From Bacteroidales bacterium (GTDB taxonomy: Bacteria; Bacteroidota; Bacteroidia; Bacteroidales; F082): a stretch of DNA of 64,000 nucleotides. The stretch is taken from positions 50,054 to 114,053 of the forward strand of contig JAFZKP010000050.1 in the NCBI GenBank assembly GCA_017553625.1, read 5' to 3'. The notes under the pieces are model-generated. The model saw nothing but the letters and a program-made list of their open reading frames with translations. It was not told the origin of the DNA and made no database searches. Position numbers and translations under genes: made by a program. This document shows, in pieces, positions 834 through 53,714 of this stretch; within the stretch, counting starts at the first letter, position 1; every line of letters begins with the position of its first letter.

Positions 834-870
834 GTAGAGACGTGCCATGGCGCGTCTCTACGTGTTTTTT
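834..870 (+). terminator. GTAGAGACG palindrome acting as likely terminator
   Basis: Perfect 9-base arms GTAGAGACG (834-842) and CGTCTCTAC (853-861) enclose TGCCATGGCG and are followed by a T-run at about 865-871. This is the cleanest intergenic copy of the dispersed palindrome family. Its position after the hydrogenase operon suggests that it ends transcription; that role is inferred. Confidence 0.6.
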
Positions 871-8605: not shown

Positions 8606-10627
8606 TTACTTTTTCAAATTTATTTTTTCAGTCTTGATACCTGCTTCTGTCTCAACCATCACCATGTAAATTCCTGATTCATAACTGCTTAAATCGATGA
8701 CAGCGTTGCCGTTGGCGGTTGTTTCCACAATCTTCTGACCGAGAACGTTCATTACAGTAATGGTCATCGTTCCGTTGCCTTCTATTCTTAAAATGCCGTC
8801 GGTAGGGTTAGGGTAGAGGCGGAGGTCGTTTAAGGCTTCCTTATCATCGACAGCGTCTTCGCAACGGTTATCGTATGTCAGGAAATTGCCGTCCTGAAGC
8901 TCGTCGGAGGTGTAGAGAACCTCGTCGTTGGCGTTCTTTATCACGAATGAGCACTCGAAGTCGGTGTCGTATTCTTCTGTGTTGTGATACCAACCGTGAT
9001 TCCAGTAGAAGTTGAGGTTTTGGCTCAACAACGGCATCACGATGGTCTGCTCCGAGCCTTCGTCCATTGTCACCACAGCGATGATGGTGTTGTTTTCGTC
9101 TGTCACGCTGATGGCAGCGCCTTTCCAGCCGTCGCCGCCTTCGTCAGCGAGCTCGAAAACTATGTCGCACTTGTCGCCGACAAGGATGTTGGCATATGCT
9201 TTGCGGTTGTAACCATAGCTGTTCTCGGCGATAACCGAATAATGATAAAGACCATCTTCAAGATCAGCGTCAACGATGTCCATTCTCTGTCCTTTCACGC
9301 CTTCTGACTGGAAAATCATTTCCCCGTTACGATAGACATAGACGGTGAAGTCGCCGAGAGGCTCGCCGTTAAGGCTGTTCTCAGGGTTGGTCCAGTTGAT
9401 GGTGACGCTTGTCATGTCATCATTTTCAACGATTTCAAAGTCGGTGATGTTTTCCGGACGCAGGAAATATTCCTGTGATGCCGGTTGGATATGCCCGATG
9501 AATCCATTGCCGTCGTTGAATGCATATTTTGTGGTGTTGAGTGCGCCGATAGGGCACCATGCGTCGTCGCGGCCGCTCCATCCCCAGTTGAAGTGGAAAT
9601 AGTCGTTCTCGTCGTAGCCGTCGCACACGAAGGCGTGACCGCCTGCACCGTTGTCGTCGGAACCGCTGTAATACAAAGGCATTCCCTCGTCGAGACCGCC
9701 GTCCTTCAACATCTGAATCCATTGCTCGTTGGTGTAGAAGTTAAATCCCCAGAAACTCAAAGTCTCGATGTCATCGCAAGTATAGCCGAAATAGGTCTGA
9801 AGAGCGACAGGCACTGCGTATGAATATGCGCCGCTGCCATGACCGCTGTACTGCATCTCGACAGAAATACCAAGGTGATGCAGGAATTGCGCGATATAGA
9901 AATAGTCGTTCTCCGTGCTTGTGGAATCGAGCGAATTTGGCATCAGCTCGAAGTGGTATTCGGTCTCGCCGAAATTGGCTGATTGTGTTGGGTATCCTTC
10001 AGGATTATAAGAATATGAGCCTGTGCCATGTTCCGGATAGTTCCAGTATTTCATCACCTGTCCCATTGCGGTGGCGACGCAGCCCGCATACACGTGACCG
10101 CCGTTGCCTTCCTCGTCCTCAGGGCACTGGCTGTTCCATGGGAAGTTCTGGTTCCAGATTGTCTGGCAGAGAGGACCAACCACACTGCGTGATTTTCTCT
10201 CCTTATTAATAAAGCCAGTCTCGGCAACAGATTCCCATTCGGCTTTGATGTCTGCAGTGGCTTCGATGTTGTTGTCTCTAATGTATTGGATCTCATGGCT
10301 GAAGCTGTTCAAAGTGAACTCAAAACCGTCGGCGATGTCGTTAGGGTTGAAGCTTCCAGTTGTCGAATAAGCCAGAATAGGCTTCACGCGGTCGTCACCG
10401 GCGATGATGACAAAACCGTTGCCGTCAGACACGTTAAACGCGTAATAATCAACGGCTTCACGTGTCGCTGAGGTGTAAACCAATTGAATATCAGTCTTTT
10501 GTGAGCCTGTGGCAGAACTCATGAAACGCTGACCAAGTTGCTGTGCGCGCTGAGCGTCGACAGGACCTGCAAAGATTTCGCCTATCGTCAAGGCAAAAAC
10601 TGCAATGAATAATAGAGTTTTTTTCAT
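8606..10627 (-). CDS. Secreted C10 (streptopain-like) cysteine protease with T9SS tail
   Basis: A 673-residue protein. It has a signal peptide (about 1-20), then a Spi-like inhibitory propeptide (about 21-140; FVIIAGDDRVKPILAYS). The C10 catalytic domain has C183 (YAGCVATAMGQVMKYWNYP) and H331 (GGHAFVCDGYDENDYFHFNW). A fibronectin-like segment follows (about 390-475), and the C-terminus is a T9SS sorting domain (RLYPNPTDGILRIEG, ending ESGIYMVMVETE). It should be exported through the outer membrane, activated by propeptide removal, and degrade external proteins. It has its own -7 element (10669-10676, minus strand). OsmC follows directly. Confidence 0.92.
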   Translation of the reverse strand: MKKTLLFIAVFALTIGEIFAGPVDAQRAQQLGQRFMSSATGSQKTDIQLVYTSATREAVDYYAFNVSDGNGFVIIAGDDRVKPILAYSTTGSFNPNDIADGFEFTLNSFSHEIQYIRDNNIEATADIKAEWESVAETGFINKERKSRSVVGPLCQTIWNQNFPWNSQCPEDEEGNGGHVYAGCVATAMGQVMKYWNYPEHGTGSYSYNPEGYPTQSANFGETEYHFELMPNSLDSTSTENDYFYIAQFLHHLGISVEMQYSGHGSGAYSYAVPVALQTYFGYTCDDIETLSFWGFNFYTNEQWIQMLKDGGLDEGMPLYYSGSDDNGAGGHAFVCDGYDENDYFHFNWGWSGRDDAWCPIGALNTTKYAFNDGNGFIGHIQPASQEYFLRPENITDFEIVENDDMTSVTINWTNPENSLNGEPLGDFTVYVYRNGEMIFQSEGVKGQRMDIVDADLEDGLYHYSVIAENSYGYNRKAYANILVGDKCDIVFELADEGGDGWKGAAISVTDENNTIIAVVTMDEGSEQTIVMPLLSQNLNFYWNHGWYHNTEEYDTDFECSFVIKNANDEVLYTSDELQDGNFLTYDNRCEDAVDDKEALNDLRLYPNPTDGILRIEGNGTMTITVMNVLGQKIVETTANGNAVIDLSSYESGIYMVMVETEAGIKTEKINLKK

Positions 10628-12324: not shown

Positions 12325-12404
12325 TTTTCTTGTTAGGTGCAAAAATAATCATAAAAATAACTTTAGTGTTATGATTTTTGTTAAATTTGCACCTAACAAG
12401 AAAA
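12325..12404. promoter_or_regulatory. Mirror-image divergent promoter of the ECF operon and the secreted-protein operon
   Basis: A 19-base perfect inverted repeat (12325-12343 and 12386-12404) flanks a central ATAAC-N6-GTTAT palindrome (12357-12372). Reading outward, each strand shows GTTAT, 13 bases, TTTGCACC and then CTAACAAGAAAA up to the start codon. Each strand also carries a -7-like TAnnTTTG (12382-12389 on plus, 12347-12340 on minus). The usual -33 TTTG is absent. The shared GTTAT is therefore a candidate upstream element for an alternative sigma factor, most simply the ECF factor encoded here. Confidence 0.75.
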
Positions 12405-12410
12405 AATACT

Positions 12411-14432
12411 ATGAAAAAATACTTGTTAACTTTGTCGGTTTTGTGTCTCGCACTCATGGCGAGAAGCGGCAATGTCTTTATTTTTGAACAGTTCGACAAT
12501 TCATATCTGCCTGCAGGCTGGTCTGTCGTCGGCTCCCAGGCCGATTATTGGCAGTTGACGGAGACGAGTCATGCGGGAGGCTCTCCGTATGAAGTCGAGT
12601 TTTATTGCAATGTCAATGGCACCTGGAGATTGACAACAGATGGAGTGGACCTCACCGGCGTGGAAAGCGTAAATTTCTCGTTTAAGCATTATTATGATAT
12701 GGCGATGGGCGCCAGTCTGACGGTTGGAATCGCCACAAAGTCAGGCAATGAATGGCATAGCGGATGGTCCCAGACTTACAACTCAGGAGGGCAGTATCAG
12801 GTGAATGCTACGATTGCGACGGAAGATATGGGTAAGCCGAATGTGAGGTTCTGTATCTATTTCACAAACTCTAATGATATGAATTTCAGCTATATATATG
12901 TCGACGACATTTCGGCTTTTATAGAGCAAGATCTTGACTTGGATTTACAGGAAATCAATGTGGAAGAGGTGCAGGCTAATAGGGTTTTTGATGTCGGCAT
13001 GCGCCTTTTTAACACCGGCAACTATGATGTCACTTCAGTGGAGTGTTCTTATCAATTCGATGATAATCAAGTTGTTACACAAACATTTAATGAGAGTATT
13101 CCTAGCGGAACGTTTAAAAACCTCACTTTCGATGTGCCGGCAAATATCATCCCCGACGATTACAGTCTGACTATTAATATAAATAAGGTGAATGGCGTCG
13201 TTGACGATAATACCACAAATAATACAATGACAAAAAAGGTGTCGGTGGCATGTATACCAGCGTCCAGAAAGCCATTGTTTGAGCATTTTTCTGCTTCGTC
13301 ATGTGGCACTTGCCCGGTATTGAGCGAAGCGATGGATGCTTTCTGCAACAACAATCCAGGGACGTTCACTTACGTGAAATATATGATGAACTGGCCGCCA
13401 CCGGGTGACCCGTATTACACCCAAGAAGGTAACATTAGAAAGACGTATTATGATGTAAATCAGATACCTTGGCTGTTTATGGATAGCTACGACTGTGGCG
13501 TCAATGCTCCGTCGCAGGCACTCTTTAATGAACATCTTAACGAATCAGCGACCATGGAGATCGGCGGCTCGTTCTATACCGATGGCTCTATGATTCACAT
13601 CAATGCTGAGATTATGCCATATGCAAGCTTGGATGACGTGAGAGTATATGTGTCTGTAAATGAAAAGATTACGCATAACAACGCGACGACAAACGGAGAG
13701 ACGTCGTTCCACCATGTGATGATGAAGATGCTGCCTGGCGGACAAGGTGCGACGATGTCACTTAAAGCCGGTCATCTGGAACGCTTGACGTTCGATTACG
13801 ATATGTCAAGCACACATGTTGAGGAGATGGACGACCTTGAGGTGGCTGTGTGGATTCAGAGGCATGAGACGAAAAGAGTGTACAACAGCGGCTTCCTGTT
13901 TGAGACCGAAAACCACCCGTATCATCCTGAGAATCTGACGGTTGAGAAGACAGGCAACACCATTCAAGCCAGCTGGGAGGCACCTTCGTTGGTCACACCG
14001 ACGGGCTATAACATCTGGCTGAATGAAGATTTGATAGCGGAGAATTTCAATGGTACAAACTATAATTTCAACGGCACCGACGGAGATTATTACTGCGTAC
14101 AAGTGCAAGCGGTGTATCCGAATAATATAGTGTCGGTGAAAGCCGTGGCAACCACCAACGAGTATTGGACAACAGGAGAGTTGGATTGTGAGATGTTGTC
14201 GGTTTACCCGAATCCTGCAGATGGTGTATTACATGTAGAGACGTTTCCTGAAACGTCTCTTGCAACGTGTCAAATGTCAATTATGAATATTCATGGTAAA
14301 TTGTTTAAAACATGTGTCTTAAATAATAATCAGATATACGTTGGCGATTTGCCGAATGGTGTGTATTTCATTGAAATAAAAGAGAATAACGACGCTCGCA
14401 AGATTGCGCGAGTCATCATAAATCATAAATAA
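12411..14432 (+). CDS. Secreted Omp28-like protein with T9SS tail
   Basis: A 673-residue protein from the ATG at 12411; upstream in-frame codons lie within the promoter. It has a signal peptide (about 1-19), then a beta-sandwich of the MAM/jelly-roll kind (about 22-170) ending IYVDDISAF. A beta domain follows, then an Omp28-like region starting near RKPLFEHFSASSCGTCP, which holds a CxxC pair. A fibronectin-like segment (about 505-580) and a T9SS tail (SVYPNPADGVLHV) complete it. A GTAGAGACG palindrome sits inside the tail coding sequence and adds VETFPETS. It is first in an operon with two subtilases and is read from the mirror promoter. Its function is probably extracellular; no catalytic site was recognised. 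Confidence 0.82.
   Translation: MKKYLLTLSVLCLALMARSGNVFIFEQFDNSYLPAGWSVVGSQADYWQLTETSHAGGSPYEVEFYCNVNGTWRLTTDGVDLTGVESVNFSFKHYYDMAMGASLTVGIATKSGNEWHSGWSQTYNSGGQYQVNATIATEDMGKPNVRFCIYFTNSNDMNFSYIYVDDISAFIEQDLDLDLQEINVEEVQANRVFDVGMRLFNTGNYDVTSVECSYQFDDNQVVTQTFNESIPSGTFKNLTFDVPANIIPDDYSLTININKVNGVVDDNTTNNTMTKKVSVACIPASRKPLFEHFSASSCGTCPVLSEAMDAFCNNNPGTFTYVKYMMNWPPPGDPYYTQEGNIRKTYYDVNQIPWLFMDSYDCGVNAPSQALFNEHLNESATMEIGGSFYTDGSMIHINAEIMPYASLDDVRVYVSVNEKITHNNATTNGETSFHHVMMKMLPGGQGATMSLKAGHLERLTFDYDMSSTHVEEMDDLEVAVWIQRHETKRVYNSGFLFETENHPYHPENLTVEKTGNTIQASWEAPSLVTPTGYNIWLNEDLIAENFNGTNYNFNGTDGDYYCVQVQAVYPNNIVSVKAVATTNEYWTTGELDCEMLSVYPNPADGVLHVETFPETSLATCQMSIMNIHGKLFKTCVLNNNQIYVGDLPNGVYFIEIKENNDARKIARVIINHK
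14235..14260 (+). repeat. GTAGAGACG palindrome inside a T9SS tail
   Basis: Arms GAGACGTTTC (14238-14247) and GAAACGTCTC (14250-14259) with loop CT. It is translated in frame as VETFPETS. Confidence 0.85.
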
Positions 14433-14437
14433 AAGTC

Positions 14438-16144
14438 ATGAAAAAGGTATTTATTGCAATTATTGCTGTTTTACTAAGTTTTACTGGCGTTTCAGCTAAT
14501 CATTCTGACGGCAGAATAAAAATAAACATTGTTTTGAAGTCGCAGTCCGATGTGACGGCGTTGAGTCGTATGGCGGACGCTTTCCCGACAAAGGCGGAGC
14601 GTCGTGATTTTGTGGTTAACACTCTGAAACGTCAGGCGAAAGAGTCGCAATATGATTTGCTGAATTATCTTAACGCATTGGAAACCAATGGAGTGGTGGA
14701 TGAAATAAGACCGTTGTGGATTGTCAATTCTGTGAGCTGCATGGCAGAAGCGATGCTTCTCGATGAGATTGCTCAACGCGATGATGTCTTGGTGGTTTAC
14801 CAATGTGTGGAATTCCGATGCCTCGACGATGACGAGATGATTCCCGTCGAGCGTGGTGACGGCAGGGAAATCGCTGAAAACCTGTTGAAAGTCAATGCGG
14901 ATAAGGTGTGGGAGCTCGGCTACACTGGCGAGGACGTGCTCATTGCGGTCATCGACACTGGCGTGAACCTTGAGCACGCTGATTTGCAGGGACGTCTTTG
15001 GGATGGAGGCGCGGAATACCCTAACCACGGCTACGATTTCTATTCTCACGACAACGACCCTTCCGACGGGCGCGGTCACGGCACCCATGTCGCCGGAACG
15101 ATAGTGGGTACTGGCGCTTCAGGCACTCAGACCGGTGTCGCGCCGGGTGCTAAAATCATGGCGCTGAAGGTGTTTAACGACGACGAGCTGACGGAGACGA
15201 CGATGTGGGTCGAGGCGATGCAGTTCGCGGTGGAGCATGGCGCTGATATCCTGAATATGTCGCTGGGGCAGCCTATGCCTGACGCCGCCGTCAAGCTGAT
15301 GATGCGGCAGGCTTGCGACAACACCTTGGCAGCCGGAGTGGTCGCCGCCGTTTGCGCAGGCAACGTCCGCCAGATGCAGTCAATGATTCCGATACCTTAT
15401 AATATATACTCGCCAGGCGATTGTCCTCCGCCGCATCTGCATGAAGACCAGCTTGTTAACGCGGGCGGGACAAGTTGCGTGGTGTGTGTTGGCGCTGTCG
15501 ACTTCAACGACGCCATCGCCGCATTCTCGTCGGTGGGACCGTCAGTATGGACCGATGTAGCACAGTACAACGACTATCCGTATTCTTCGGGAAGCTCGGC
15601 AAATATCGGTCTCATCCGTCCCGACGTGAGCGCGCCAGGCGTGAACATCAAGTCATTGGATTACAGCAACAACAGTGGCTATTGCCTGAAAAACGGCACC
15701 TCGATGGCGACGCCGTGCGTGGCAGGGACAATGGCGCTGATGCTGTCGAAAGACCATGAGCTGACACCTGCCCAACTTGACGAGATTCTTGAACGCACCG
15801 CCATATCGCTGTCGACGCATAAAAGCAACGATTTCGGTTCAGGCCGCATCGACGCGCTGGCGGCAGTGAACGCCATCGGAGATGATGGAGTCGTTGAAAA
15901 TGAAAAGGATATGGTTTCAATATATCCAAATCCAGCCAAAGATTTCATCACCATCGTAGAGACGTTTCCTGAAACGTCTCCTGAAACGTCTCAAATATCA
16001 TTAATAAACATTGATGGTCAATTCGTTGGAATCCGTGTTCAAAAAAACAATCAAATCTATATCGGCGACCTGCCAAATGGTATCTATCTTATGAAAATAG
16101 AATCATCAGAAGGTGTTTTTTATGAAAAAATCATTAAAGAATAA
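14438..16144 (+). CDS. Subtilisin-like (S8) serine protease with T9SS tail, copy 1
   Basis: A 568-residue protein. It has a signal peptide (about 1-20) and a propeptide (to about 150). The S8 catalytic triad is D173 (VIDTGVNLEH), H214 (GHGTHVAGT) and S422 (NGTSMATP), with oxyanion residue N309 (CAGN). The T9SS tail starts at MVSIYPNPAKDF and is interrupted by a GTAGAGACG palindrome with an extra half copy (ETFPETSPETSQ). It follows the Omp28-like gene by five bases and precedes a second subtilase by two. It should act outside the cell or on its surface. Copy 2 shares the propeptide motif (KAERRDFVV here, RAERRDFVV there), so the pair arose by duplication. Confidence 0.93.
   Translation: MKKVFIAIIAVLLSFTGVSANHSDGRIKINIVLKSQSDVTALSRMADAFPTKAERRDFVVNTLKRQAKESQYDLLNYLNALETNGVVDEIRPLWIVNSVSCMAEAMLLDEIAQRDDVLVVYQCVEFRCLDDDEMIPVERGDGREIAENLLKVNADKVWELGYTGEDVLIAVIDTGVNLEHADLQGRLWDGGAEYPNHGYDFYSHDNDPSDGRGHGTHVAGTIVGTGASGTQTGVAPGAKIMALKVFNDDELTETTMWVEAMQFAVEHGADILNMSLGQPMPDAAVKLMMRQACDNTLAAGVVAAVCAGNVRQMQSMIPIPYNIYSPGDCPPPHLHEDQLVNAGGTSCVVCVGAVDFNDAIAAFSSVGPSVWTDVAQYNDYPYSSGSSANIGLIRPDVSAPGVNIKSLDYSNNSGYCLKNGTSMATPCVAGTMALMLSKDHELTPAQLDEILERTAISLSTHKSNDFGSGRIDALAAVNAIGDDGVVENEKDMVSIYPNPAKDFITIVETFPETSPETSQISLINIDGQFVGIRVQKNNQIYIGDLPNGIYLMKIESSEGVFYEKIIKE
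15956..15992 (+). repeat. GTAGAGACG palindrome with duplicated right arm
   Basis: Arms 15959-15968 and 15971-15980 (GAGACGTTTC, CT, GAAACGTCTC), followed by CT and a second GAAACGTCTC (15983-15992). It is translated in frame within the T9SS tail of the first subtilase. Confidence 0.85.
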
Positions 16145-34618: not shown

Positions 34619-36175
34619 ATGGCAAATACAAAAATTCTTTGGACAGACGATGAGATTGAGCTTCTTAGGCCTCATATTTTGTTTTTGGAACAGAAAGGTT
34701 ATGATGTTGAGACAGCAAACAATGGCAGCGACGCCGTTGAGATGGTTAGGAACGGGCATTTTGACATCGTCTTCCTTGACGAGCAGATGCCTGGCATTTC
34801 GGGCGTTGAGACCCTTGAAAAGATAAAAGCCGAGTTCCCGAATCTCCCTGTGGTGATGATTACCAAGAGCGAGGAGGAGCGTATCATGGAAGACGCCATC
34901 GGCAGCAATATCGCCGATTATCTGATAAAACCAGTCAATCCTAACCAGATTCTGCTTTCGCTGAAGCGCAATCTTGAGAATAAAAAGCTTGTGGAGGAGA
35001 AGTCGACCTCGATGTATCAGCAGGAATTCCGTAAAATTGGAATGGATTTGAACAACAGCCTTGACTATAACGAGTGGGTCGGGGTTTATAAAAACATCAC
35101 GAGATGGGAGCTGGAGCTGCAGAAATCGACGGACGAAGGTATAAAAGAGGTGCTTTTCATGCAGAAAAACGAGGCTAACAACCAGTTTTCGCGCTATGTG
35201 GAGAGAAACTACTGCGACTGGGTGTCGGGCAAGGGCGTTAACAAGCCTACGATGTCACATACCGTGGTGCGTGATAAGATTCTACCGCGTCTGTCAAATG
35301 ACGATAAGCCGTTGTTTTTCATACTGATAGATAACCTCCGCTACGACCAGTGGAAGGCGGTGCAGCCACTAATAGAGTCGTATTTCAGGGTCGTGGATGA
35401 TGACATTTATTACAGCATCCTGCCGACGACAACGCAATATGCGCGCAACTCCATCTTCGCAGGTCTGATGCCGCTTGAGATACGCCGCCATTACCCGAAA
35501 TACTGGACTGATGAGGAGGACGAGGGCACGAAAAACCAGTATGAGGGCGAGCTTTTGGGCGAACAGCTGCGTCGTTATGGCAAAAACATCAAGTATTCAT
35601 ATAATAAGGTGTTGAATCTGGCGGCGGGCAAGAAGCTTCTCGACCAGATGAACAACTTGATGCAGAATAAGTTAAACGTCATTGTTTATAATTTCGTCGA
35701 TATGTTGTCGCATGCGCGCACCGAGATGGATATCATACGTGAACTTGCCGACGACGAGGTGGCTTACCGCTCATTGATGTTGTCGTGGTTTGAGCATTCC
35801 TCGCTGTTCGATATGATGAAATTCATCGCTAACAAGGGCTGCGATATCGTGGTGACTACCGACCATGGCTCTGTCTGGGTGAAGAATCCTGTTAAGATTC
35901 TGGGCGACAAGGCTGTCAATACGAATTTGAGATATAAATATGGTAAATCATTGAAATACAACGCTAAAGAGGTATTTGAAGTGAAAGACCCAGAGAAGAT
36001 TTTCCTGCCTCGTATCAACGTTTCCACTTCTTACGTCTTTGCCCGCAGCAATGATTTCTTCGCATATCCGAATAATTACAACTATTATGTCAATTATTAC
36101 AGGAACACGTTCCAGCATGGCGGCATCTCCATGAATGAAATGTTGATTCCTGTAGCATATCTGAATGCAAAATGA
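34619..36175 (+). CDS. porX: PorX: response regulator with PglZ domain, T9SS regulator
   Basis: A 518-residue protein. The receiver domain (1-120) has the acidic pair D10-D11, phosphoacceptor D54 (FLDEQMPG), Thr/Lys in VVMITKS and IKPVNP. A helical linker follows, then the PglZ phosphatase-like domain (about 210-518; LFFILIDNLRYDQW, then IVVTTDHGS). This architecture is PorX, which with sensor PorY controls T9SS genes in Porphyromonas and is linked there to an ECF sigma factor. PorY is not in the window. The presence of five T9SS cargo genes and an ECF factor nearby makes the assignment coherent. Overlaps tsaE by four bases. Confidence 0.92.
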   Translation: MANTKILWTDDEIELLRPHILFLEQKGYDVETANNGSDAVEMVRNGHFDIVFLDEQMPGISGVETLEKIKAEFPNLPVVMITKSEEERIMEDAIGSNIADYLIKPVNPNQILLSLKRNLENKKLVEEKSTSMYQQEFRKIGMDLNNSLDYNEWVGVYKNITRWELELQKSTDEGIKEVLFMQKNEANNQFSRYVERNYCDWVSGKGVNKPTMSHTVVRDKILPRLSNDDKPLFFILIDNLRYDQWKAVQPLIESYFRVVDDDIYYSILPTTTQYARNSIFAGLMPLEIRRHYPKYWTDEEDEGTKNQYEGELLGEQLRRYGKNIKYSYNKVLNLAAGKKLLDQMNNLMQNKLNVIVYNFVDMLSHARTEMDIIRELADDEVAYRSLMLSWFEHSSLFDMMKFIANKGCDIVVTTDHGSVWVKNPVKILGDKAVNTNLRYKYGKSLKYNAKEVFEVKDPEKIFLPRINVSTSYVFARSNDFFAYPNNYNYYVNYYRNTFQHGGISMNEMLIPVAYLNAK

Positions 36176-36603
36176 TGGAGAAAACTTTCATAATCAACAG
36201 CGTTGGCGAGCTCTCGCAGGTTTCTGAATTATTGATTTCTTGGCGTGATAAATCAAATATTATTGCATTTTATGGTCCAATGGGGGCAGGCAAGACCACT
36301 TTGATAAAGAATCTTTGCCATAAACTCGGAGTGACCGATGAAGTCAATAGCCCGACGTTCGCCCTTGTAAATGAATATCCTACGCCGATAGAAGGTTCGA
36401 TTTTCCACTTCGATTTTTACAGAATCAAGAAGTTGGAAGAGGTCTATGACATCGGCTACGAAGACTATTTTTACAGCGGTCGTCTCTGCCTCTTGGAATG
36501 GCCCGAACTCATCGATCCTTTGATGCCAGACCATTTCATAAAGGTTGAAATCGCATTGGGAGATAACGATAACAGTCGTAGAATTAAATGTACAATTCTG
36601 TAG
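36172..36603 (+). CDS. tsaE: tRNA threonylcarbamoyladenosine protein TsaE
   Basis: A 143-residue P-loop ATPase. Walker A is GPMGAGKTT (about 35-43). The family pattern continues with NSPTFALVNEY, FHFDFYRI and LLEWPE. It helps TsaB-TsaD place t6A on tRNA. The ATG overlaps the porX stop. Its stop codon TAG is supplied by a GTAGAGACG palindrome that starts at 36600, so the C-terminus may have been changed by that insertion. Confidence 0.93.
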   Translation: MMEKTFIINSVGELSQVSELLISWRDKSNIIAFYGPMGAGKTTLIKNLCHKLGVTDEVNSPTFALVNEYPTPIEGSIFHFDFYRIKKLEEVYDIGYEDYFYSGRLCLLEWPELIDPLMPDHFIKVEIALGDNDNSRRIKCTIL

Positions 36604-36624
36604 AGACGGATGAAAATCCGTCTC
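36600..36624 (+). repeat. GTAGAGACG palindrome providing the tsaE stop codon
   Basis: Arms GAGACGGAT (36603-36611) and ATCCGTCTC (36616-36624) around GAAA. The TAG inside GTAGAG ends tsaE. Confidence 0.85.
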
Positions 36625-36642
36625 AATCACGGATAAATAAAA

Positions 36643-37689
36643 ATGGTATTATATAAAAATGATATTGCCGAATTAAAAAATCTCATTTCGTCTCACACCA
36701 AAACGTTTTTGCTGTTGGACGAGAACACTGAAAAGCATTGCCTGAAAGTCTTGGATTTCATTGATTTTCAAAATGTTGTAAAAATAATTATCCCTTCAGG
36801 CGAGCAAAACAAAAACATAGAAACTGTTAAATATATTTGGGCGCAACTTATTGGGAATCTTGCCGATAGGAATGCCTTGCTGATAAATGTCGGCGGTGGC
36901 ATGGTGAGCGACATCGGCGGTTTCGCCGCTTCATGCTATCAGCGCGGAATCGATTTCATCAACATCCCGACCACTCTTCTGGCAATGATTGACGCTGCCA
37001 TTGGTGGCAAGACTGGCATTGATTTTCACGGACTTAAAAATCAAATTGGCGTATTCTCGCAACCTTTGGCTGTCGTGATTCTTCTCGAGTTTTTGGAAAC
37101 TCTTCCTGAGCGAGAACTGCTTTCAGGACTTGCAGAAATCATAAAATATGGTTTCATTGTTGACAAAACTTTTTTGGACGCACAACTTCAAAAAAATCCT
37201 GTAAATCTTGTCAATCCTGTCTTTATCAAAAAAGCAATCGAAGTCAAAAATGAGATTACTTGTCAAGACACGACAGAGCAGGGGAGACGCAAGATACTTA
37301 ATTTCGGGCACACTGTCGGACATGCTCTTGAGACGTATCTTTTTGATACTCGGGATAGTTTAAAACACGGGGAGGGCGTGGCGCTTGGTATGCTTTCCGC
37401 TTTGTTTCTTTCTGAAAAATATTGTGGGCTGAATCATGAAACAACATTATACTATAAGAATATTTATAGGAAAAATTTCAATAGATTCGACTTCGGCAAA
37501 CTGCCAGTTGACGAATTGGTTGAGATAATGCGTCATGACAAGAAAAACACTGACGGCAACATCCGTTTCGTCTTGATTTCTGATTTGGAAAAACCTGTTT
37601 ACGATGTTGTCGTTAAGCCTGAGGATATAGTTGAATCAATAAAATATCTCATTGATTATCTGAATGATGAAAATTATTGGGGCAAATAG
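36643..37689 (+). CDS. aroB: 3-dehydroquinate synthase
   Basis: A 348-residue enzyme. NAD-binding is shown by VGGGMVSDIGGFAASCYQRG. Metal ligands are in the expected places: GLAEIIKYG (Glu), FGHTVGHALE (His) and HGEGVALGM (His). IPTTLLAMIDAAIGGKTG is a family signature. It makes dehydroquinate from DAHP in the shikimate pathway. It overlaps aroA by 26 bases. Confidence 0.95.
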   Translation: MVLYKNDIAELKNLISSHTKTFLLLDENTEKHCLKVLDFIDFQNVVKIIIPSGEQNKNIETVKYIWAQLIGNLADRNALLINVGGGMVSDIGGFAASCYQRGIDFINIPTTLLAMIDAAIGGKTGIDFHGLKNQIGVFSQPLAVVILLEFLETLPERELLSGLAEIIKYGFIVDKTFLDAQLQKNPVNLVNPVFIKKAIEVKNEITCQDTTEQGRRKILNFGHTVGHALETYLFDTRDSLKHGEGVALGMLSALFLSEKYCGLNHETTLYYKNIYRKNFNRFDFGKLPVDELVEIMRHDKKNTDGNIRFVLISDLEKPVYDVVVKPEDIVESIKYLIDYLNDENYWGK

Positions 37690-39010
37690 TGATTTTGATG
37701 TAACTGTCAATCTTGTGGGCAGCAAGAGTGAATCCAACCGCGCCCTGATGATTTCCCATTATGGTGGCTTCACACCCCGAATCAATAATTTGTCCACCTC
37801 CGACGATACCGTTTTATTATCCGAAATCATTAATAACATCGATGTAAAGACGCGATTCATCGCGTCTCATAAATCAAATAATGAGGGGGCAATAATAAAC
37901 TGCCAAAACGCCGGAACCGTCTTCCGCTTCCTTGCCACCGCATTGGCATTTCGTGATGGCGATTTTATTTTAACCGGTTCCGACCGCATGATGCAGCGTC
38001 CTGTCGGCGACCTCGTCGATGCGTTGCGTAAAATTGGTGTGGATATTGAATATGTTGGAAATGAGGGATTTCCGCCATTGAAAATCTGTGGAAGACAATT
38101 TGTAGAGACGGATGAGAATCCGTCTCAAATCAATGTAAATATCTCCCGCAGCTCGCAATTTGCCTCATCGATTTTGTTGGCATTACCAACCATAGAGACG
38201 CGCAATGGCACGTCTCTACATCTGGACGGCAACCTGTCATCCCTACCTTACATCGACATGACCATCGACGTGATGCGTAAATTCGGTGCCGGTGTTCATC
38301 GTGACGGACGTGATGTCTTTGTAAAACATTCTGATTATCAGGATGTTGAATATTGTGTTGAATCCGATTGGACGTGTGCGTCATATTGGTATGAGGCGGT
38401 CGCGTTATCTGACAACGGTCGTGCCCGTTTGCGTAATCTGAGGTTGGATTCCAAACAAGGTGACGCCATCGTCGCCAAATGGTTCGAAAATTTCGGCGTG
38501 AAAACCGTTCAGGACGACAACGATATAATTATCACCCACGTAGAGACGGATGAAAATCCGTCTCATGAAAAAATGGATTTTCATCCGTTTCATAAAAAGA
38601 CGGATTTTCATCCGTCTCTACATTTCGATTTCATCGACAACCCTGACCTGTTTCCGACCATCGCCGCCACCTGTGCCGGGTTGCATGTCGAAGGGCATTT
38701 CACGGGTCTGCGCAACCTCGTGCACAAGGAATCGAATCGGGTGGCGGCGATGATTGACGAATTGTCCAAAATCGGCGTGAAATTTGAAAAAATATCTGAT
38801 GATGAATTGATTGTCACACCCGTAGAGACGTTTCCTGAAACGTCTCTTGAAATCGTTTTCAATCCCCACAACGACCACCGCATCGCGATGTCCCTCGCGC
38901 CTCTCGCAATGAAAATCGGCGCCCTCGAAATCGAGAACGCCGACGTTGTTTCTAAATCATATCCGAATTTCTGGACGGAATTTCAAAAATCATTCCCATC
39001 CTGTTGTTAA
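37664..39010 (+). CDS. aroA: EPSP synthase with six in-frame palindrome insertions
   Basis: A 448-residue enzyme, longer than the usual ~410 for the group. Motifs are intact: GSKSESNRALM, QNAGTVFRFLATALAF, RPVGDLVDALRKIG, LDSKQGD and HNDHRIAMSLAPLA. It joins shikimate-3-phosphate and PEP. Between the motifs lie peptides encoded by GTAGAGACG-type palindromes: VKTRFIASH (about residue 62), VETDENPSQ (147), IETRNGTSL (177), VETDENPSHEKMDFHPFHKK with TDFHPSLH (293-320) and VETFPETSL (387). All keep the frame, and the active-site motifs are undisturbed, so the enzyme is probably functional. The 3' end overlaps the convergent LutA-like gene by 21 bases. Confidence 0.95.
   Translation: MMKIIGANSDFDVTVNLVGSKSESNRALMISHYGGFTPRINNLSTSDDTVLLSEIINNIDVKTRFIASHKSNNEGAIINCQNAGTVFRFLATALAFRDGDFILTGSDRMMQRPVGDLVDALRKIGVDIEYVGNEGFPPLKICGRQFVETDENPSQINVNISRSSQFASSILLALPTIETRNGTSLHLDGNLSSLPYIDMTIDVMRKFGAGVHRDGRDVFVKHSDYQDVEYCVESDWTCASYWYEAVALSDNGRARLRNLRLDSKQGDAIVAKWFENFGVKTVQDDNDIIITHVETDENPSHEKMDFHPFHKKTDFHPSLHFDFIDNPDLFPTIAATCAGLHVEGHFTGLRNLVHKESNRVAAMIDELSKIGVKFEKISDDELIVTPVETFPETSLEIVFNPHNDHRIAMSLAPLAMKIGALEIENADVVSKSYPNFWTEFQKSFPSCC
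37845..37869 (+). repeat. Palindrome in aroA, copy a
   Basis: GTAAAGACGCGAT variant: arms AGACGCGAT (37848-37856) and ATCGCGTCT (37859-37867), loop TC. Read in frame as VKTRFIAS. Confidence 0.8.
38102..38126 (+). repeat. Palindrome in aroA, copy b
   Basis: Arms GAGACGGAT (38105-38113) and ATCCGTCTC (38118-38126), loop GAGA. Read in frame as VETDENPS. Confidence 0.85.
38193..38219 (+). repeat. Palindrome in aroA, copy c
   Basis: Arms TAGAGACG (38193-38200) and CGTCTCTA (38211-38218) around CGCAATGGCA, close to the core of the intergenic copy at 834. Read in frame as IETRNGTSL. Confidence 0.8.
38540..38621 (+). repeat. Cluster of palindromes in aroA, copies d and e with a worn copy between
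   Basis: Copy d: arms 38543-38551 and 38556-38564 (GAGACGGAT/ATCCGTCTC). Copy e: AGACGGAT (38598-38605) and ATCCGTCT (38610-38617), ending CTAC, in reverse orientation. Between them (38566-38592) lies a degenerate relative, ATGGATTTTCATCCGTTTC. The cluster encodes 27 extra residues. Confidence 0.8.
38822..38846 (+). repeat. Palindrome in aroA, copy f
   Basis: Arms GAGACGTTTC (38825-38834) and GAAACGTCTC (38837-38846), loop CT. Same core as the copies in the T9SS tails. Read as VETFPETS. Confidence 0.85.
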
Positions 39011-45423: not shown

Positions 45424-46554
45424 ATGAGAAATTTATGTTTTTATTTCCAGGTGCATCAGCCGTACAGGCTCCGCACGTATCGTTTCTTCGATATAGGGAA
45501 ACGTCATTTCTACTATGACGACTACAACAACCGCATCACCATGCAGCGCGTGGCTGAGCGCTGCTATCTTCCTATGAACCAGTTGATGCTCAAGAAGATA
45601 GAAGAGCTTGGGAACAAGATGAAGTTCGCAATTTCGTTCTCAGGACCGGCAATAGAGCAGATGGAGGTGTATGCGCCATATGCTTTGGAAAGCTTCAAGA
45701 AACTTGTGGCGACAGGTAATGTGGAGGTGTTGGCCGAGACTTACTCTCATTCGGTGGCATCATTGATGAATAAAGACGCTTTCAAGATGGAAGTCGCCGA
45801 CCATAAACGACTTATGAAAGAGATTTTCAATGTCAGACCTAAGACTTTCCATAACACAGAGCTCATTTATTCCAACGAAATCGGTGCTGACGTTGCTGAA
45901 ATGGGTTTCGACCTCATCTTGACTGAAGGCGCAAAGCACGTCTTGGGTTGGAAGAGTCCTAACTATCTGTATGTCAACGCGATAAATCCAAAGCTAAAGG
46001 TGATGCTCCGTAACTGGAAGATTAGCGACGAGATTACGTTGAGGTTCAGTCACCAGAGTTACACTGTCGATGACTTCGTGAACTGGCTCAACTCGCTTCC
46101 AGAAGAGGAGGAGCTGGTGAACATTTTCATTGATTATGAGACGTTTGGCGAGGCTTTGGACGCTTCGACGGGCATCTTCGACTTTATGAGATATTTGCCT
46201 GATGCTGTTTTGAGAAAAACTGATTTCCAGTTGGTTACACCGCATCAGATTGTCGACAAGCTGCAGCCTACTGGAGTGTTCGATGCCCCGATTCCGCTCT
46301 CGTGCCAGGATGAAGAACGCGACCTCTCCAACTGGATGGGCAACGACATGCAGGACGATGCTCTCGCAACTTTATATGGATGCTTCAAGAAGGTGAAAGC
46401 TTCTAAGGATGAGGAACTTATGCGTGACTGGCGCGCATTGCAGGCAGCAGAGAATTTCTCGGCGATGTGCACCAAACATCAGGGAGGCACTCCGTACGAC
46501 TATTACATTAATTATATGAACATTTTAACTGATTTTATTAACAGAATGAAATAA
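45424..46554 (+). CDS. GH57 family glycoside hydrolase
   Basis: A 376-residue protein. The N-terminal FYFQVHQPYRLRTYRFFDIG and ETYSHSVASLM are GH57 motifs. TFHNTELIYSN carries the likely nucleophile Glu, and IDYETFGEALD the likely acid Asp. GH57 includes alpha-amylases, 4-alpha-glucanotransferases and branching enzymes; the exact activity cannot be fixed from sequence. It has no signal peptide, so it acts in the cytoplasm with its neighbours in glycogen metabolism. Octamer array 3 follows directly. Confidence 0.88.
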   Translation: MRNLCFYFQVHQPYRLRTYRFFDIGKRHFYYDDYNNRITMQRVAERCYLPMNQLMLKKIEELGNKMKFAISFSGPAIEQMEVYAPYALESFKKLVATGNVEVLAETYSHSVASLMNKDAFKMEVADHKRLMKEIFNVRPKTFHNTELIYSNEIGADVAEMGFDLILTEGAKHVLGWKSPNYLYVNAINPKLKVMLRNWKISDEITLRFSHQSYTVDDFVNWLNSLPEEEELVNIFIDYETFGEALDASTGIFDFMRYLPDAVLRKTDFQLVTPHQIVDKLQPTGVFDAPIPLSCQDEERDLSNWMGNDMQDDALATLYGCFKKVKASKDEELMRDWRALQAAENFSAMCTKHQGGTPYDYYINYMNILTDFINRMK

Positions 46555-46644
46555 AGTTAATCAGTTGTTCAGTTAATCAGTTGTTCAGTTTATTCTGGCT
46601 AATTGGTTAACTGATTAACTGACTAACTGATTAACTGACTAACT
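46555..46644 (+). repeat. Octamer array 3, inverted halves
   Basis: The left half has AGTTAATC/AGTTGTTC units and the right half TTAACTGA/CTAACTGA units. The halves are complementary: about 25 bases pair with two mismatches across a loop of about 26. It runs to two bases before the synthase-phosphorylase ATG. Confidence 0.85.
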
Positions 46645-46646
46645 TT

Positions 46647-49600
46647 ATGAAAAAGAAAACGGATTATTTATTTGAAACGAGTTGGGAAGTTTGTAACATG
46701 GTGGGCGGTATCTACACCGTCATTTCCACAAAAGCTGAGGAGCTGAAGCAACTGCTTGATGATCATTATATTACGATTGGTCCAGACATCGTGAAAGAGG
46801 CTCATGAGACCATGTATTTCATCGAAGACCCGTCGCTTTTTGCCGAGTGGCGTGAGAAGGTGGCGGAGCAGCTGGGCGTGAAGGTGCGCGTAGGACGCTG
46901 GAAGATTTCGGCTAAGCCGATTGCTATCCTAATCGACTACACTTCGATGTATTCCATTAAGAATGAGATACTTGGACATCTCTGGGAGCGTTATCAACTC
47001 GACTCTATTCAAGGTCAGTGGGACTATATAGAGCCTGTCGTTTTTGGTTACGCAGCCGGAAAAGTCATTGAGAGTTTTGTGGAGTGGAATGTCGGTCCTG
47101 ACGACAGCGTCGTGGCGCAGTTCCATGAGTGGATGACGGGGGCAGGAGTGTTGTACATCAAAGAGCATTGCCCATATATATCAACGGTTTTCACCACGCA
47201 CGCGACGTATCTGGGACGTGCCATCAGCGGCAACGGACTACCGCTGTACAGTCAGCTCGGCTCGTACAACTGGCAGAACATGGCAAGCCGTTTCAACATC
47301 GTGTCGCAGCAGTCGATGGAGATGAAATCAGCGCAGAACGCCGACGTCTTCACCACTGTGAGCGAGATAACGGCGCAGGAATGTGAGCAGTTTTTGTTGA
47401 GAAAACCAGATTTCATCACTATAAACGGAATAAATTCGGATTTCAATAAAAATTGTAGAGACGTACGGCCGTACGTCTCAACGTCCAGAGAAAAAATATT
47501 CCATATCATCGATGCCCTTTGCGGAAAAGAGGTCTCACGCGATTCGATGTTTATTATCAACAGCGGACGCTATGAATTCCATAACAAAGGTATCGATTTG
47601 TATATCAAGATGTTAGCGAAGCTAAATCACGATGAGAACCTGAAACGTGACATCGTGGCGGTGATTGCTGTCCCTGGAAATATCGCGGGTCCTTCGAAAG
47701 ATTTGCAGCATCGTCTCAATAAAGATGTCGAGTTCGTAGGTCACACTGACTTCCCATGTACGCATCATGTCCATGATTATCAATGGGATATGGTTCTCAA
47801 CGCCTTGCGCGAAAACGGCTTGCAGAATAATGAGGGCGACCGCGTGAAAGTGATGTTCGTTCCTGCTTATCTCAACGGCAACGATGGCATTTTCAACATA
47901 AAATACAATGAATTCCTGTATGCTTTCGACCTCTCGGTGTTCCCTTCTTATTATGAGCCATGGGGTTACACTCCGCTTGAAAGCATCGCGCACGGCATCC
48001 CGACAGTCACAATGGATATATCAGGATTCGGAAGATATATCTTGAGCGAAAATATTGACAATGAAGCTGTTACAGTGATTCATCGCGAAGAGGAGAACAG
48101 CGACACTGTTGTCAACAAGATGGCGGAAGTCGTTGAAAAAATGTCAGCTCATACAGAAAAAGAGAATAAACAGATTTCTGAAAAGGCGATTGAGATTGCA
48201 TCAAAATTAGTTTGGAAAGAATTGATTGTCAATTATTTAAATGCCTACGACCTTGCCATCAGAAAATCAGGAGGAAAAGAGTATATTAAACAGAGCAAAA
48301 AATATTCAGAAGTGTTAAGAAATTTTGACTATAAGAAACAAGATGCCCCTACGTGGAAGAAAATTTTGATTGAGCCGGTGTACTCGGATGGGATGAAGAA
48401 ACTACAGGAGCTCGCCAACAACCTTTGGTGGTGCTGGAACGATGATGCCATCGAGTTGTTCGAAAGCATTGACCCTGTTGCATTTGAGCGTCTTGAACAG
48501 AACCCGATAGCTCTTATTAAGAGCCTTACCAAGTTCCAGATTGAGAGCCTTGAACAGGATGCGAATTTTGTCGAGAAACTGAATAAAGTTTACGACAAGT
48601 TCAAGAAATATATGTCGGTGAAGCCGGAAAACGACAATAAAATCGCGTATTTCAGCATGGAATACGGTTTGTTGAAGTCGCTGAAGATTTATTCAGGCGG
48701 TCTCGGCATCCTTGCAGGTGACTACCTAAAACAGGCTTCCGATTCTAATGCTAACTTATTGGCTATCGGTCTGTTATATCGTTACGGCTATTTCAATCAG
48801 GAGCTTTCGGTGTGGGGCGACCAGCTTTCGCAATATCTGCCACAGAAGTTCTCGCTGCTGCCATTGGAGCCTGTTCGTGACGAAGAAGGCAACTGGGTGA
48901 CAATCAGCATCGCTTTCCCTGGCAGGAGCGTGTTCGCGAAAGCGTGGAAAGTCAACGTGGGAAGAATAAGTCTGTATCTGCTTGACACTGACATCGAGCA
49001 AAACTCGCCTGAAGACAGAGCCATCACAGGACAGCTTTACGGTGGCGACAGTGAGATGCGTATCAAACAAGAATTGTTCCTCGGCGTGGGAGGTATCAGA
49101 ATGCTTAACGCATTGAATATCAAACCAACAATATTCCATTGCAACGAAGGACATGCCGCGTTCTGCGGTCTTGAGCGACTTAGCCACTACGTCACGAAGC
49201 ATAATCTTGACTTCGACGTGGCAAAGGAGCTTGTGAAGACTTCAACGTTGTTTACAACGCACACGCCGGTTCCGGCAGGTCACGACGCTTTTGAGGAGAA
49301 CCTAATGAGGACATATCTGTCGCAATTCCCAGGCAGAGTCAACATTTCGTGGGAAGACTTCATGAATCTCGGACGCATGCGTCACAACGATCCGAACGAG
49401 AAGTTCTCGATGAGCGTCTTGGCAGTGAACCTCAGCCAGGAAGTCAATGGAGTGAGCCGCATCCACGGAAGAGTCAGTAGAGAGATGTTCCAGCAGATGT
49501 GGCCTGGCTATTTCGCCGAAGAAAACCACATCGGATACGTCACCAACGGCGTTCATCTCCCGACATGGGCAGACAAGAACTGGCAACGCTTATATAATAA

Positions 49601-52001: not shown

Positions 52002-52275
52002 CGTCTTCAAACATTGCTTCACTGAGACAGTACTGGCCAGGACGGTCGTCCTCCTGGAAAAGATACACTGAAGCCTTGTGGAATGTCAAAGGCTGCTGAT
52101 TGTCAGAGAGCTGCTGCACCTTTTCGTATGACAGACCTTCAATCTTGCAGAGCCTCATCATCGCCGCAAGGTCGAGGTCGAGGTTCAAGAACATGTCCTT
52201 TTTACCTTCTTTCCACGCAATGCTGATGATTCCCGTGGTGTAAAGCTCGAAATCCTTTATTTCAATTTTTTTCAT
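51964..52275 (-). CDS. Small unrecognised protein upstream of the exonuclease
   Basis: A 103-residue, acidic, soluble protein I do not recognise (FELYTTGIISIAWKEGKKD, then FQEDDRPGQYCLSEAMFEDD). Its 3' end overlaps the exonuclease start by about 38 bases, and the two are likely co-translated. A palindrome and octamer array 4 lie upstream, and the MATE gene is further upstream on the same strand. Confidence 0.55.
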   Translation of the reverse strand: MKKIEIKDFELYTTGIISIAWKEGKKDMFLNLDLDLAAMMRLCKIEGLSYEKVQQLSDNQQPLTFHKASVYLFQEDDRPGQYCLSEAMFEDDGIDIYYCEIKG

Positions 52276-52289
52276 GGTTTTACTTATAT

Positions 52290-52316
52290 TGGAGATGCGA
52301 TGAATCGCATCTTTAC
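52290..52316 (-). repeat. Intergenic palindrome, reverse GTAAAGATGCG variant
   Basis: Arms AGATGCGAT (52293-52301) and ATCGCATCT (52304-52312), loop GA, ending TTAC. It is the reverse complement of the copy at 45368. Confidence 0.8.
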
Positions 52317-52327
52317 ATTGCTCATAT

Positions 52328-52388
52328 AACTGATTAACTGATTAACTGATTAACTGATTAACTGACTAACTGACTAACTGATTAACTA
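52328..52388 (+). repeat. Octamer array 4 (AACTGAYT units)
   Basis: Seven or so tandem AACTGATT/AACTGACT units ending AACTA. Its right edge supplies the stop codon (TAG on the minus strand) of the MATE gene. Confidence 0.85.
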
Positions 52389-53714
52389 TATTTTAAGTTT
52401 GTGCCAATTGGCGTATTTGATGTAAAGTATTGATACTATTGCGAGTAGGCCGCCATAGATGTATTCGCACGTCCAGACCCATTCCACGTGGGTGGTGATA
52501 TTCGTGAGCATCCAGATATAGGCGATGTACAGCAGAAGTATGCCGAACTCGAGCCATAACGCGGCGTTGGTCTTGCCTGTTCCTGATACCGCCTCGAATG
52601 ACACCGCTCCAAGTGCCTGGAAGATGATAGCTCCACAAATCACGAAGATTGAGGGGATGGCGGCGTTGGCGAGTGTCATGTCGTCGGTGTAGATGCTCAT
52701 CACTGCGGTGGGGAAGAAGACACAAATCAGAATCAGCGGGATGCAGCACAGTATGCAGTTGAAGATGATTTTGAACAGCGTCGCCATCACCTCGTCGGCG
52801 TGTCCCGCCCCGATGATGCGGCTCGTCAAGGTGTTGGAGGTGGCGAGGAAACCGAAGACAGGTATGAACAGAATCATGTAGACGCTGCGTGCGATTGACG
52901 AGATCCCGATGGCTTCTTCGCCCATTTTTTCCACAAGGATGAAGAAGATGAACCATGTGGTGAACGAGAACAGCTTCTGGAACATGGTCGGGGTGGCGAT
53001 GCGCACGATATTGCCCGCCAGCTCCTTGTCATACCCGTGCGGCTTGAAAAGCTCATACTCGCTTTTGCCCAATTTGATATAGGTGTAGACGAGGAAGAAC
53101 GTCGTCGCGGTGACCTCGGCTATCAGTGAAGCTAATGCCGCGCCGCCGATGCCCATTTCAGGGAAACCGAACTTGCCGAAGATAAGGCAGTAGTCGAGGA
53201 TGATGTTGACAGCCGCCATGATGACGGTGGAAAACGTGATGACTTTTGTGTTGGAAAGCCCCGTGTACAAGGAGCGGAAGAGGTAGTTGAAGCACACGAA
53301 AACGATGCCGAACTGGCGGAATCCGATGTATTCCATCGCACCGGTGTAGATGCCGTCAGACTCGATGATGAAATCGAGGAGCGAGCCTGAGAAAATCCTC
53401 ATTATCGCGAACAAAAGCAGTCCGAAGATTAGAATCGATGCAGCGCCGTGCTGGAAGATGCTCCCGATTTTGTTGTATTCTTTGGCGCCGAAACGTCGCG
53501 CGATGATTATCTGGATGCCGATAGCCAAGCCCATCGCCATGGTGGTGAACACGAAATAATACATTCCCGCCATCATCGAGGAGCCGAGCGCGACGACGCC
53601 CAGATGCCCCAGAAACGCCGTGTCTGTGAACGTGATAAGCGTCTGCGCCAGGTTGCCGATCATGATAGGAACCGCAATGCGCCAAATCTCTTTTGTAGAA
53701 ATACTTGTCTTCAT
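52386..53714 (-). CDS. MATE family multidrug/cation efflux transporter
   Basis: A 442-residue integral membrane protein with about 12 hydrophobic segments in two bundles. MATE signatures are visible: IAVPIMIGNLAQTLITFTD at the start and AMGLAIGIQIIIARRFGA, then FGFLATSNTLTSRIIGAG in the second half. It should export drugs or other organic cations in exchange for Na+ or H+. The last codon and stop come from the edge of octamer array 4. It has a -7 element at 53725-53732 on the minus strand. Confidence 0.93.
   Translation of the reverse strand: MKTSISTKEIWRIAVPIMIGNLAQTLITFTDTAFLGHLGVVALGSSMMAGMYYFVFTTMAMGLAIGIQIIIARRFGAKEYNKIGSIFQHGAASILIFGLLLFAIMRIFSGSLLDFIIESDGIYTGAMEYIGFRQFGIVFVCFNYLFRSLYTGLSNTKVITFSTVIMAAVNIILDYCLIFGKFGFPEMGIGGAALASLIAEVTATTFFLVYTYIKLGKSEYELFKPHGYDKELAGNIVRIATPTMFQKLFSFTTWFIFFILVEKMGEEAIGISSIARSVYMILFIPVFGFLATSNTLTSRIIGAGHADEVMATLFKIIFNCILCCIPLILICVFFPTAVMSIYTDDMTLANAAIPSIFVICGAIIFQALGAVSFEAVSGTGKTNAALWLEFGILLLYIAYIWMLTNITTHVEWVWTCEYIYGGLLAIVSILYIKYANWHKLKI

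Follow-up and report, generated by a model that had tools for sequence, protein, structure and literature searches.

GTAG-tagged palindromes in frame within a Bacteroidales aroA gene, and different palindrome cores at the same codons in related genomes

Why does one essential gene hold six copies of a palindrome and still read through in a single frame? The question is posed by aroA, the gene for EPSP synthase, in a Bacteroidales bacterium (GenBank assembly GCA_017553625.1); the gene lies in a 64,000-nucleotide stretch of contig JAFZKP010000050.1 that was analysed as a whole and is called the window here. An initial annotation had listed six palindromes and one worn copy in this gene, all of which we find no more than a few bases from the places it gave, and had offered two explanations: a hot spot, or peptides that are harmless surface loops. 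We propose that the aroA palindromes are non-autonomous repetitive extragenic palindromic (REP) elements spread by enzymes resembling the REP-associated tyrosine transposases (RAYTs), and that their sites are refilled with other element families over time, a reading to which we give a probability of roughly 0.72. It is supported directly by the element family and its copy number, the reading frame, the placement of the elements in a protein model, the RAYT neighbourhood, the association of enzymes with cores and the different cores at shared codons.

An intact aroA gene with palindrome-coded loops

The six palindromes have the form GTA-GAGACG-N10-CGTCTC in either orientation, occupy five sites, A to E (Table 1), and are all read in the same frame (GTA GAG ACG ... 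TCT), so that every one keeps the frame, as had been claimed. The window contains nine exact matches to GAGACG-N4-20-CGTCTC, where shuffled sequences contain 0.05 on average and never more than 1; five of the nine lie within 36603-38846, four of these five inside aroA, and two further aroA palindromes have one arm mismatch. The impression that so many repeats in one housekeeping gene are very unusual holds up: 6 elements lie in the 1.35 kb of aroA, and the remaining 317.6 kb of sampled coding DNA from its own genome holds 15. By our arithmetic about 0.06 elements would be expected in aroA (Poisson probability about 1e-10), and this estimate is conservative because most of the sampled stretches were chosen for holding elements.

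aroA is intact, and its codons outside the elements are under purifying selection. Against its nearest relative (L016), the ratio of nonsynonymous to synonymous substitution rates (dN/dS) is 0.24 over 361 codons outside the elements and 1.2 over 66 codons inside them. Of 34 alignment columns invariant across 26 AroA proteins, none is covered by a palindrome, in agreement with the view that no catalytic motif is hit. The protein was also rightly described as about 40 residues longer than usual, because it has 448 residues against a median of 406 among the 15 nearest other sequences; the nearest relatives found are Bacteroidales assemblies, mostly derived from ruminants. No second aroA, intact or otherwise, was found in the organism's own assembly (86.7% complete), where the one further match is the antisense of aroA's own palindromic stretch. 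Although the genome is a draft in 52 contigs at that completeness, the recurrence of the pattern in other assemblies, the intact frame, the dN/dS of 0.24 and the retained invariant residues leave almost no room for an assembly artefact or a pseudogene.

Alignment with the AroA proteins of relatives and mapping onto structure, both suggested by the initial annotation, place the insertions in low-confidence, mostly coil stretches of a predicted EPSP synthase fold. In the AlphaFold model (mean confidence score, pLDDT, 87.8), the ten-residue blocks with pLDDT below 85, the two termini aside, are those at or adjoining the five palindrome sites. On this model, DSSP assigns coil to all or most of sites B, D and E; site C begins as coil and contributes its last four residues to a strand, and site A, with pLDDT below 50, extends past the end of a helix. 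The predicted fold matches E. coli AroA (1g6s) over 397 residues; as modelled, AroA is an ordinary EPSP synthase, and its interior stretches of low confidence are those that the palindromes encode. The suggestion of harmless surface loops gains support, short of proof, from the fold model and from dN/dS, and the palindrome peptides are probably tolerated passengers.

aroA is an extreme instance of something more general. There are 112 copies of the exact pattern in the 2.47-Mb draft (52 contigs), against 0 in the reversed control, and copies are present in all 60 genus genomes searched, this one included, and in 57 of 296 genomes of a phylum sample. GTAG is the tag of the element: on both strands of 114 kb, GTAG-tagged palindromes were detected 25 times, compared with 2-5 in five shuffles, while the control tags GATG (19 against 4-17) and GAAG (13 against 3-9) rose slightly above their shuffles and CTAG, GTTG and GTGG did not. 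A sister pattern with GTAGGGACA arms has matches in 20 of 30 genus genomes; chance may account for some of the single ones. In 346 kb of the same genome, largely picked around elements, 21 of 42 copies lie inside called genes, at 0.066 per kb compared with 0.785 per kb outside. In-gene copies from blocks of five genomes number 39, none of them in the G039 block; a few could be matches by chance, as perhaps at G060_C21 25579. Of the 39, 31 are read in one frame and 8 in another, and never in the frame in which the TAG of the tag would be a stop codon. Besides aroA, element-bearing genes include those for AnmK, RibD, a U32 peptidase, GH97, a glycogen synthase-like protein, a helicase and a radical SAM protein.

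Different cores at shared codons

Several comparisons bear on whether the sites, once filled, keep their contents. First, the same AroA loops are filled by palindromes of different cores in relatives (19 AroA sequences). Site B is filled in 13 of the 19, as read by hand from the alignment tables (with L056 worn and L022 uncounted), by GATGAGAATC, TTTCCTGAAA, CACGGTCGTG, TGCCATGGCG, a GGGACAGAC form and other cores, some at the same codon and others a few codons off; the nearest relative has TTTCCTGAAA there. Alleles without a palindrome are also without its residues (L019 and L062 at site B; L061, L062, L063 and others at site C), and the pattern that the initial annotation had held against insertion, relatives with the same residues and no palindromic DNA, was not seen at these two sites. 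By a strict scan, 13 of 32 aroA genes carry 19 elements between them, where codon shuffling gives a mean of 1.2 and at most 4.

Second, a further gene behaves in the same way. It encodes a 399-residue protein (L123:6936-8135) that has no Pfam match, weakly resembles sulfoquinovose isomerase, carries three elements and is matched in 44 of the 60 genus genomes. Here the strict scan counts 39 elements, spread over 20 of 31 orthologues (1.5 on average in shuffles, at most 5), and in 19 of the 31 an element with one of nine core labels starts at residues 44-46: 17 of these begin at residue 44 and the others at 45 and 46, all in one frame. Among 17 distinct 22-base elements at this site (the shorter element of L234 dropped, the identical ones of L241 and L248 entered once), the outer arms are nearly invariant and the core covaries, with 97.9% of pair cells kept and a covariation of 0.655 against 0.162 when shuffled.

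Such covariation, together with stable RNA hairpins (z of -3.5 to -10.5), is what selection for a hairpin function in RNA or DNA would leave if the cores drifted through compensatory mutation. We regard this as improbable, since the cores found at a single site belong to families that turn up throughout the genome and are tied to RAYT clades, element-free orthologues exist and dN/dS inside elements is about 1.2; worn versions one or two bases off were seen, and no chain between families was met, although no systematic search for one was made.

Third, the cores do not fit the tree of the second gene to a significant degree. With labels set by hand, cores at the residue 44 site need 12 changes, compared with 13.6 in shuffles (35 of 300 shuffles were as low), and those at another site need 11 compared with 9.75. 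The position of an element is thus inherited, and its content is without significant inheritance.

Fourth, differences are found at shared sites between whole genomes. Comparison with the nearest relative, G060, in which both flanks lay in the other set for 25 of 51 own elements and 32 of 81 relative's elements, gave by our reading 26 shared GAGACG-type sites, 16 with the same core and 10 with different cores, seven of the ten in genes; the matching blocks are 79-97% identical, mostly near 90. The 26 exclude the right-hand element of aroA site D, which is ambiguous; C1b 156356, where the two genomes have different elements within a long interval that does not align; and sites with no element or another repeat kind in one genome. 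At C9:7164 and C18:16937, close genomes differ at the exact position with elements of equal length. Such exact-position differences, and the start of 17 of the 19 second-gene elements at residue 44, the others at 45 and 46, in one frame, argue against independent gains, in which each species would have acquired its own element at a tolerant loop and no exchange at a retained site would be needed. That explanation is unlikely, though it accommodates loop sites lying a few codons apart between species (site B in L020, L061, L024 and L057) and unrelated repeats occupying some of the same gaps.

A somewhat stronger contender, still clearly less probable than our own proposal, is ectopic gene conversion or template switching between copies that share arms, without any transposase. 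Nearly invariant arms would suit it, as would the composite or tandem copies seen at site B of L016 and site E of L020 and, in G003 and G007, the occurrence of the site core at other places in the genome. Yet the shared arms span just about 9 bp, and the core at the site in G048 was not found elsewhere in that genome by exact pattern. Further, GGGACG-armed elements occupy codons that GAGACG-armed ones use elsewhere (two second-gene sites in L225, aroA site C in L024 and aroA site D in L054), which favours replacement of whole elements over conversion of the core only.

The hot spot proposed for this locus is supported in one sense, as particular codon sites common to several species; the elements belong to a genome-wide, RAYT-linked family, and what the sites contain changes.

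RAYT-like enzymes beside the palindromes

The organism's own genome holds two RAYT-like genes, on contigs C34 and C21. The first has GATGCAAATC/GATGAAAATC elements on both sides and shares its core families with aroA sites B and D; the second has a CGATTCATCG pair on one side and shares its core family with site A. No elements were seen inside these two genes. Enzymes with the site C core were found in relatives (L265, L271, L284 and L285).

The relevant RAYT-like genes are matches below the cut-off of NCBIfam NF047646 (REP_Tyr_transpos). In a first set, chosen partly for known adjoining elements, 20 of 20 loci have GTAG or GTGG palindromes beside or inside the gene. A second set took rank-ordered, near-full-length matches outside the first, from 61.3 down to 35.9 bits, omitting shorter matches in this range and five matches of 72.9-79.5 bits; a GTAG palindrome lies inside or within 250 bp of 18 of its 20 loci, and GTAGAGAC occurs in 16 of the 20, compared with GTAG palindromes in 2-15% of random 1.1-kb windows (seven blocks).

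Palindrome cores go with enzyme clades, each of which retains its own. A tree was built from 37 of the 40 RAYT-like proteins (L276 was dropped as a fragment, L294 and L302 for having no palindrome); on it, the 17 hand-set core labels need 16 changes, which is the minimum, whereas shuffled labels need 29.4 on average and never fewer than 26 in 500 shuffles. Elements also lie within the enzyme genes: 27 are inside stop-to-stop RAYT open reading frames (ORFs), 22 of them between the HUH and Y motifs, and some of the other five may precede the start codon. The motifs of RAYT subclass 2.4 are NH[IFV]H, WQ and YIxNNP; of 39 RAYT ORFs here, 38 have [ND]H[IFVL]H, 38 WQ, 32 Y[IV]xNN[PV] and 8 YIxNNP; the protein on contig C21 has HHVH and lacks an exact WQ or YIxNN.

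Two other candidates were set aside. The Y1_Tnp domain (PF01797) was rejected as the mobiliser: its match in the organism's own genome is IS200-like (NF033573, 53.7 bits, cut-off 55) and stands beside a different palindrome, and the GTAGAGACG palindrome was near none of 13 Y1 loci. That IS200-like transposase (L116:747-1199, on contig C13) is followed directly by another GTAG palindrome, GTAGCGTGCCTCCGGCACGC. Proteins scoring above the NF047646 cut-off look like another group; among the ten loci with the top matches, a GTAG palindrome is found at five (inside one, within 58-202 bp of four), and our search gave no motif-bearing ORF at three.

We propose the following course of events. The elements would be non-autonomous REPs that bear GTAG at one end and, in many cases, CTAC at the opposite one. 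RAYT-like (TnpA-REP) HUH enzymes would have dispersed them across this Bacteroidales genus, each enzyme lineage having its own palindrome core between largely shared arms. In-frame landings in tolerant loops would survive, and a filled site would persist and later be refilled by other element families, its position kept and its core changed. That RAYTs catalyse the movement, and that exchange proceeds by excision and re-insertion rather than by another kind of copying, we infer from the sequences. Site C, a helicase gene and C4:40183 suggest that the target may have carried GTAG/CTAC before any element arrived. The findings are most simply accounted for by a RAYT/REP system of subclass 2.4 type that is rich in parallel enzyme-core pairs.

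Several observations weigh against this proposal. Transposition itself was not seen in the sequence comparisons, and a pre-existing GTAG/CTAC fits one clean empty site and not another (G060 C5:20099). On the side of the enzymes, the two own RAYT-like proteins score 44.1 and 37.7 bits, below the NF047646 cut-off of 80, and a match above that cut-off occurs in just 12 of the 60 genus genomes. No RAYT-like gene for the site C core was found in the own, incomplete assembly, none of the 40 loci has one with the core of site E, and neither G052 (99% complete, 34 forward copies) nor G046 (90%, 40 copies) has an NF047646 match at E 0.001; across genomes, Y1_Tnp counts show no significant correlation with element density (Spearman 0.20, p 0.12). 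Several long branches meet in the RAYT tree, in which 12 of 34 inner branches are weak. On the side of the sites, the tree test of cores covers two sites of the second gene and not aroA, and the 35 of 300 shuffles with as few changes at residue 44 leave space for a weak tree signal. Differing cores between this genome and G060 tend, by eye, toward lower flank identity, and some core exchanges may be old or may have been carried by recombined gene segments.

Relatives of the elements and what they imply

Further members of the family in the window are listed with the aroA sites in Table 1, and the site D region (38534-38630) folds as RNA at -50.1 kcal/mol. A VETFPETS element stands 42-57 codons before the C-terminal end of three proteins (window 12378-14432, window 14438-16144 and L122:2710-4287), and Por_Secre_tail was matched at its position in the two of these that were searched.

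Table 1. aroA, its palindromes and other members of the family in the window
Feature	Position	Strand	Details
aroA, EPSP synthase, host gene of the insertions	37664..39010	+	448 aa; PF00275
Site A, GTA-tagged palindrome	37844..37868	+	Core CGATTCATCG; codes V61-KTRFIAS; core as in the pair beside own RAYT-like gene G000:C21
Site B	38102..38126	+	Core GATGAGAATC; codes V147-ETDENPS; one base off a core beside own RAYT-like gene G000:C34
Site C, ATA...CTAC, tag on right	38192..38219	-	Core CGCAATGGCA (YGCCATGGCR family); codes I177-ETRNGTSLH
Site D left	38540..38564	+	Core GATGAAAATC; codes V293-ETDENPS; same core beside own RAYT-like gene G000:C34
Worn palindrome copy within site D	about 38571..38594	.	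Inverted pair
Site D right, inverted partner of 38540-38564	38597..38621	-	CTAC tag on right; codes K312-TDFHPSLH
Site E	38822..38846	+	Core TTTCCTGAAA; codes V387-ETFPETS
Member at end of tsaE-like gene	36600..36624	+	Core GATGAAAATC; GTAG tag supplies TAG stop codon of tsaE-like gene 36172-36603, upstream of aroA
Member in glycogen synthase/phosphorylase-like gene	47455..47479	+	Second frame (GT AGA GAC); core TACGGCCGTA, relative has GTCAGCGGCA
Member, in frame, in gene of 684 aa	14235..14259	+	Core TTTCCTGAAA
Member, in frame, in S8 protease gene with Por_Secre_tail domain	15956..15980	+	Core TTTCCTGAAA
Member with GTAG and CTAC at its two ends	834..861	.	Core TGCCATGGCG; outside called genes

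Other repeats occur at or near such sites. Partly inverted units resembling AACTGATT/AACTGACT lie at 46542-46698 and 52260-52435 of the window and at 8875, 42353 and 77770 of contig C4; G060 has a GTAG palindrome at three of these sites and a shorter version at the other two. An inverted element with GTCATTTCGACCGAAG...GGAGAAATCTC, at least several tens of bases long, occurs in some and is missing from others among close genomes (G060 C21 about 105280; the G052/G039 and G005/G046 blocks). In L017, L018, L023, L024 and L057, the site A loop of AroA has TCTTATCCT-like units (SYP residues) instead of a palindrome.

A 30-base member with GTAGAGACG arms matches 23 plasmid records, mostly of cyanobacteria and Persicobacter (among them Nostoc, Anabaena, Planktothrix and Calothrix), and the small dispersed repeats of cyanobacteria are presumably candidate relatives.

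The closest described system is TnpA-REP/RAYT subclass 2.4 (Bertels group 4), which has 'double foot' REPs and, in the part of its description cited here, is abundant in Cyanobacteria and Bacteroidetes (PMC6006769). Like it, the enzymes here are Y1 HUH-type genes flanked by their own REPs, with REPs inside the enzyme gene between the HUH and Y motifs and the frame kept. They differ in that V replaces P of the subclass motif YIxNNP in many proteins, and in where frame-keeping insertions lie: the one described in that part of PMC6006769 is in the enzyme's own gene, whereas here host genes are filled at fixed codons by elements belonging to different enzyme families. The GTAG tag, short stem, in-gene copies, TAG stop codon and RAYT association are shared with the GTAG REP superfamily as portrayed in the relevant portion of its survey (PMC3733652). 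That portion lists GTAG repeats for Proteobacteria, Cyanobacteria, Chloroflexi and PVC, gives only CGTC repeats for Bacteroidetes, and reports at most two insertion sites per gene and clusters coding 43-82 residues; here, by contrast, GTAG repeats occur in Bacteroidales and fill five sites in aroA. A precedent for site sharing comes from the same excerpt, in which different REPs lie at about the same recB site in two Xanthomonas species (Di Nocera 2013, PMC3733652). As with Rickettsia palindromic elements (RPE), the palindromes sit in frame within functional protein genes; the tag here is GTAG, unlike the intragenic R. conorii repeats, which are covered there as CGTC-tagged or as the longer RPE-1, with no GTAG (PMC3733652).

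GTAG REPs, their RAYTs, in-frame REPs, the TAG stop and the coevolution of enzymes with REPs are thus in print, as far as the cited parts of these papers extend (PMC3733652, PMC6006769, PMC8266576, PMC2817692). Searches of the open-access literature turned up no essential gene with five filled sites and no case in which elements specific to different enzymes keep replacing one another at set codons; a literal search of papers for the sequence matched 371, of which the 20 listed seem, judging by title, to concern primers or other matters. REPs inside genes have been described before; their exchange at fixed codon positions seems to be new.

More speculatively, and with the odds against it, essential proteins of this genus may act as reusable docks at which a set of RAYTs, each reading its own hairpin core, swaps in-frame peptide cassettes at fixed codons on an evolutionary time scale without breaking the gene. 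If true, this would be a coded exchange of single-strand cassettes inside housekeeping genes. For annotators and protein modellers, palindrome peptides in housekeeping proteins should not be taken as functional domains; in AroA, an essential enzyme tolerates six added stretches, which mark loops free to vary. The genus also offers a natural record of 17 enzyme-linked hairpin cores, several of them at the same gene sites, so that comparison of strains can test whether REPs spread by RAYT transposition or by recombination.
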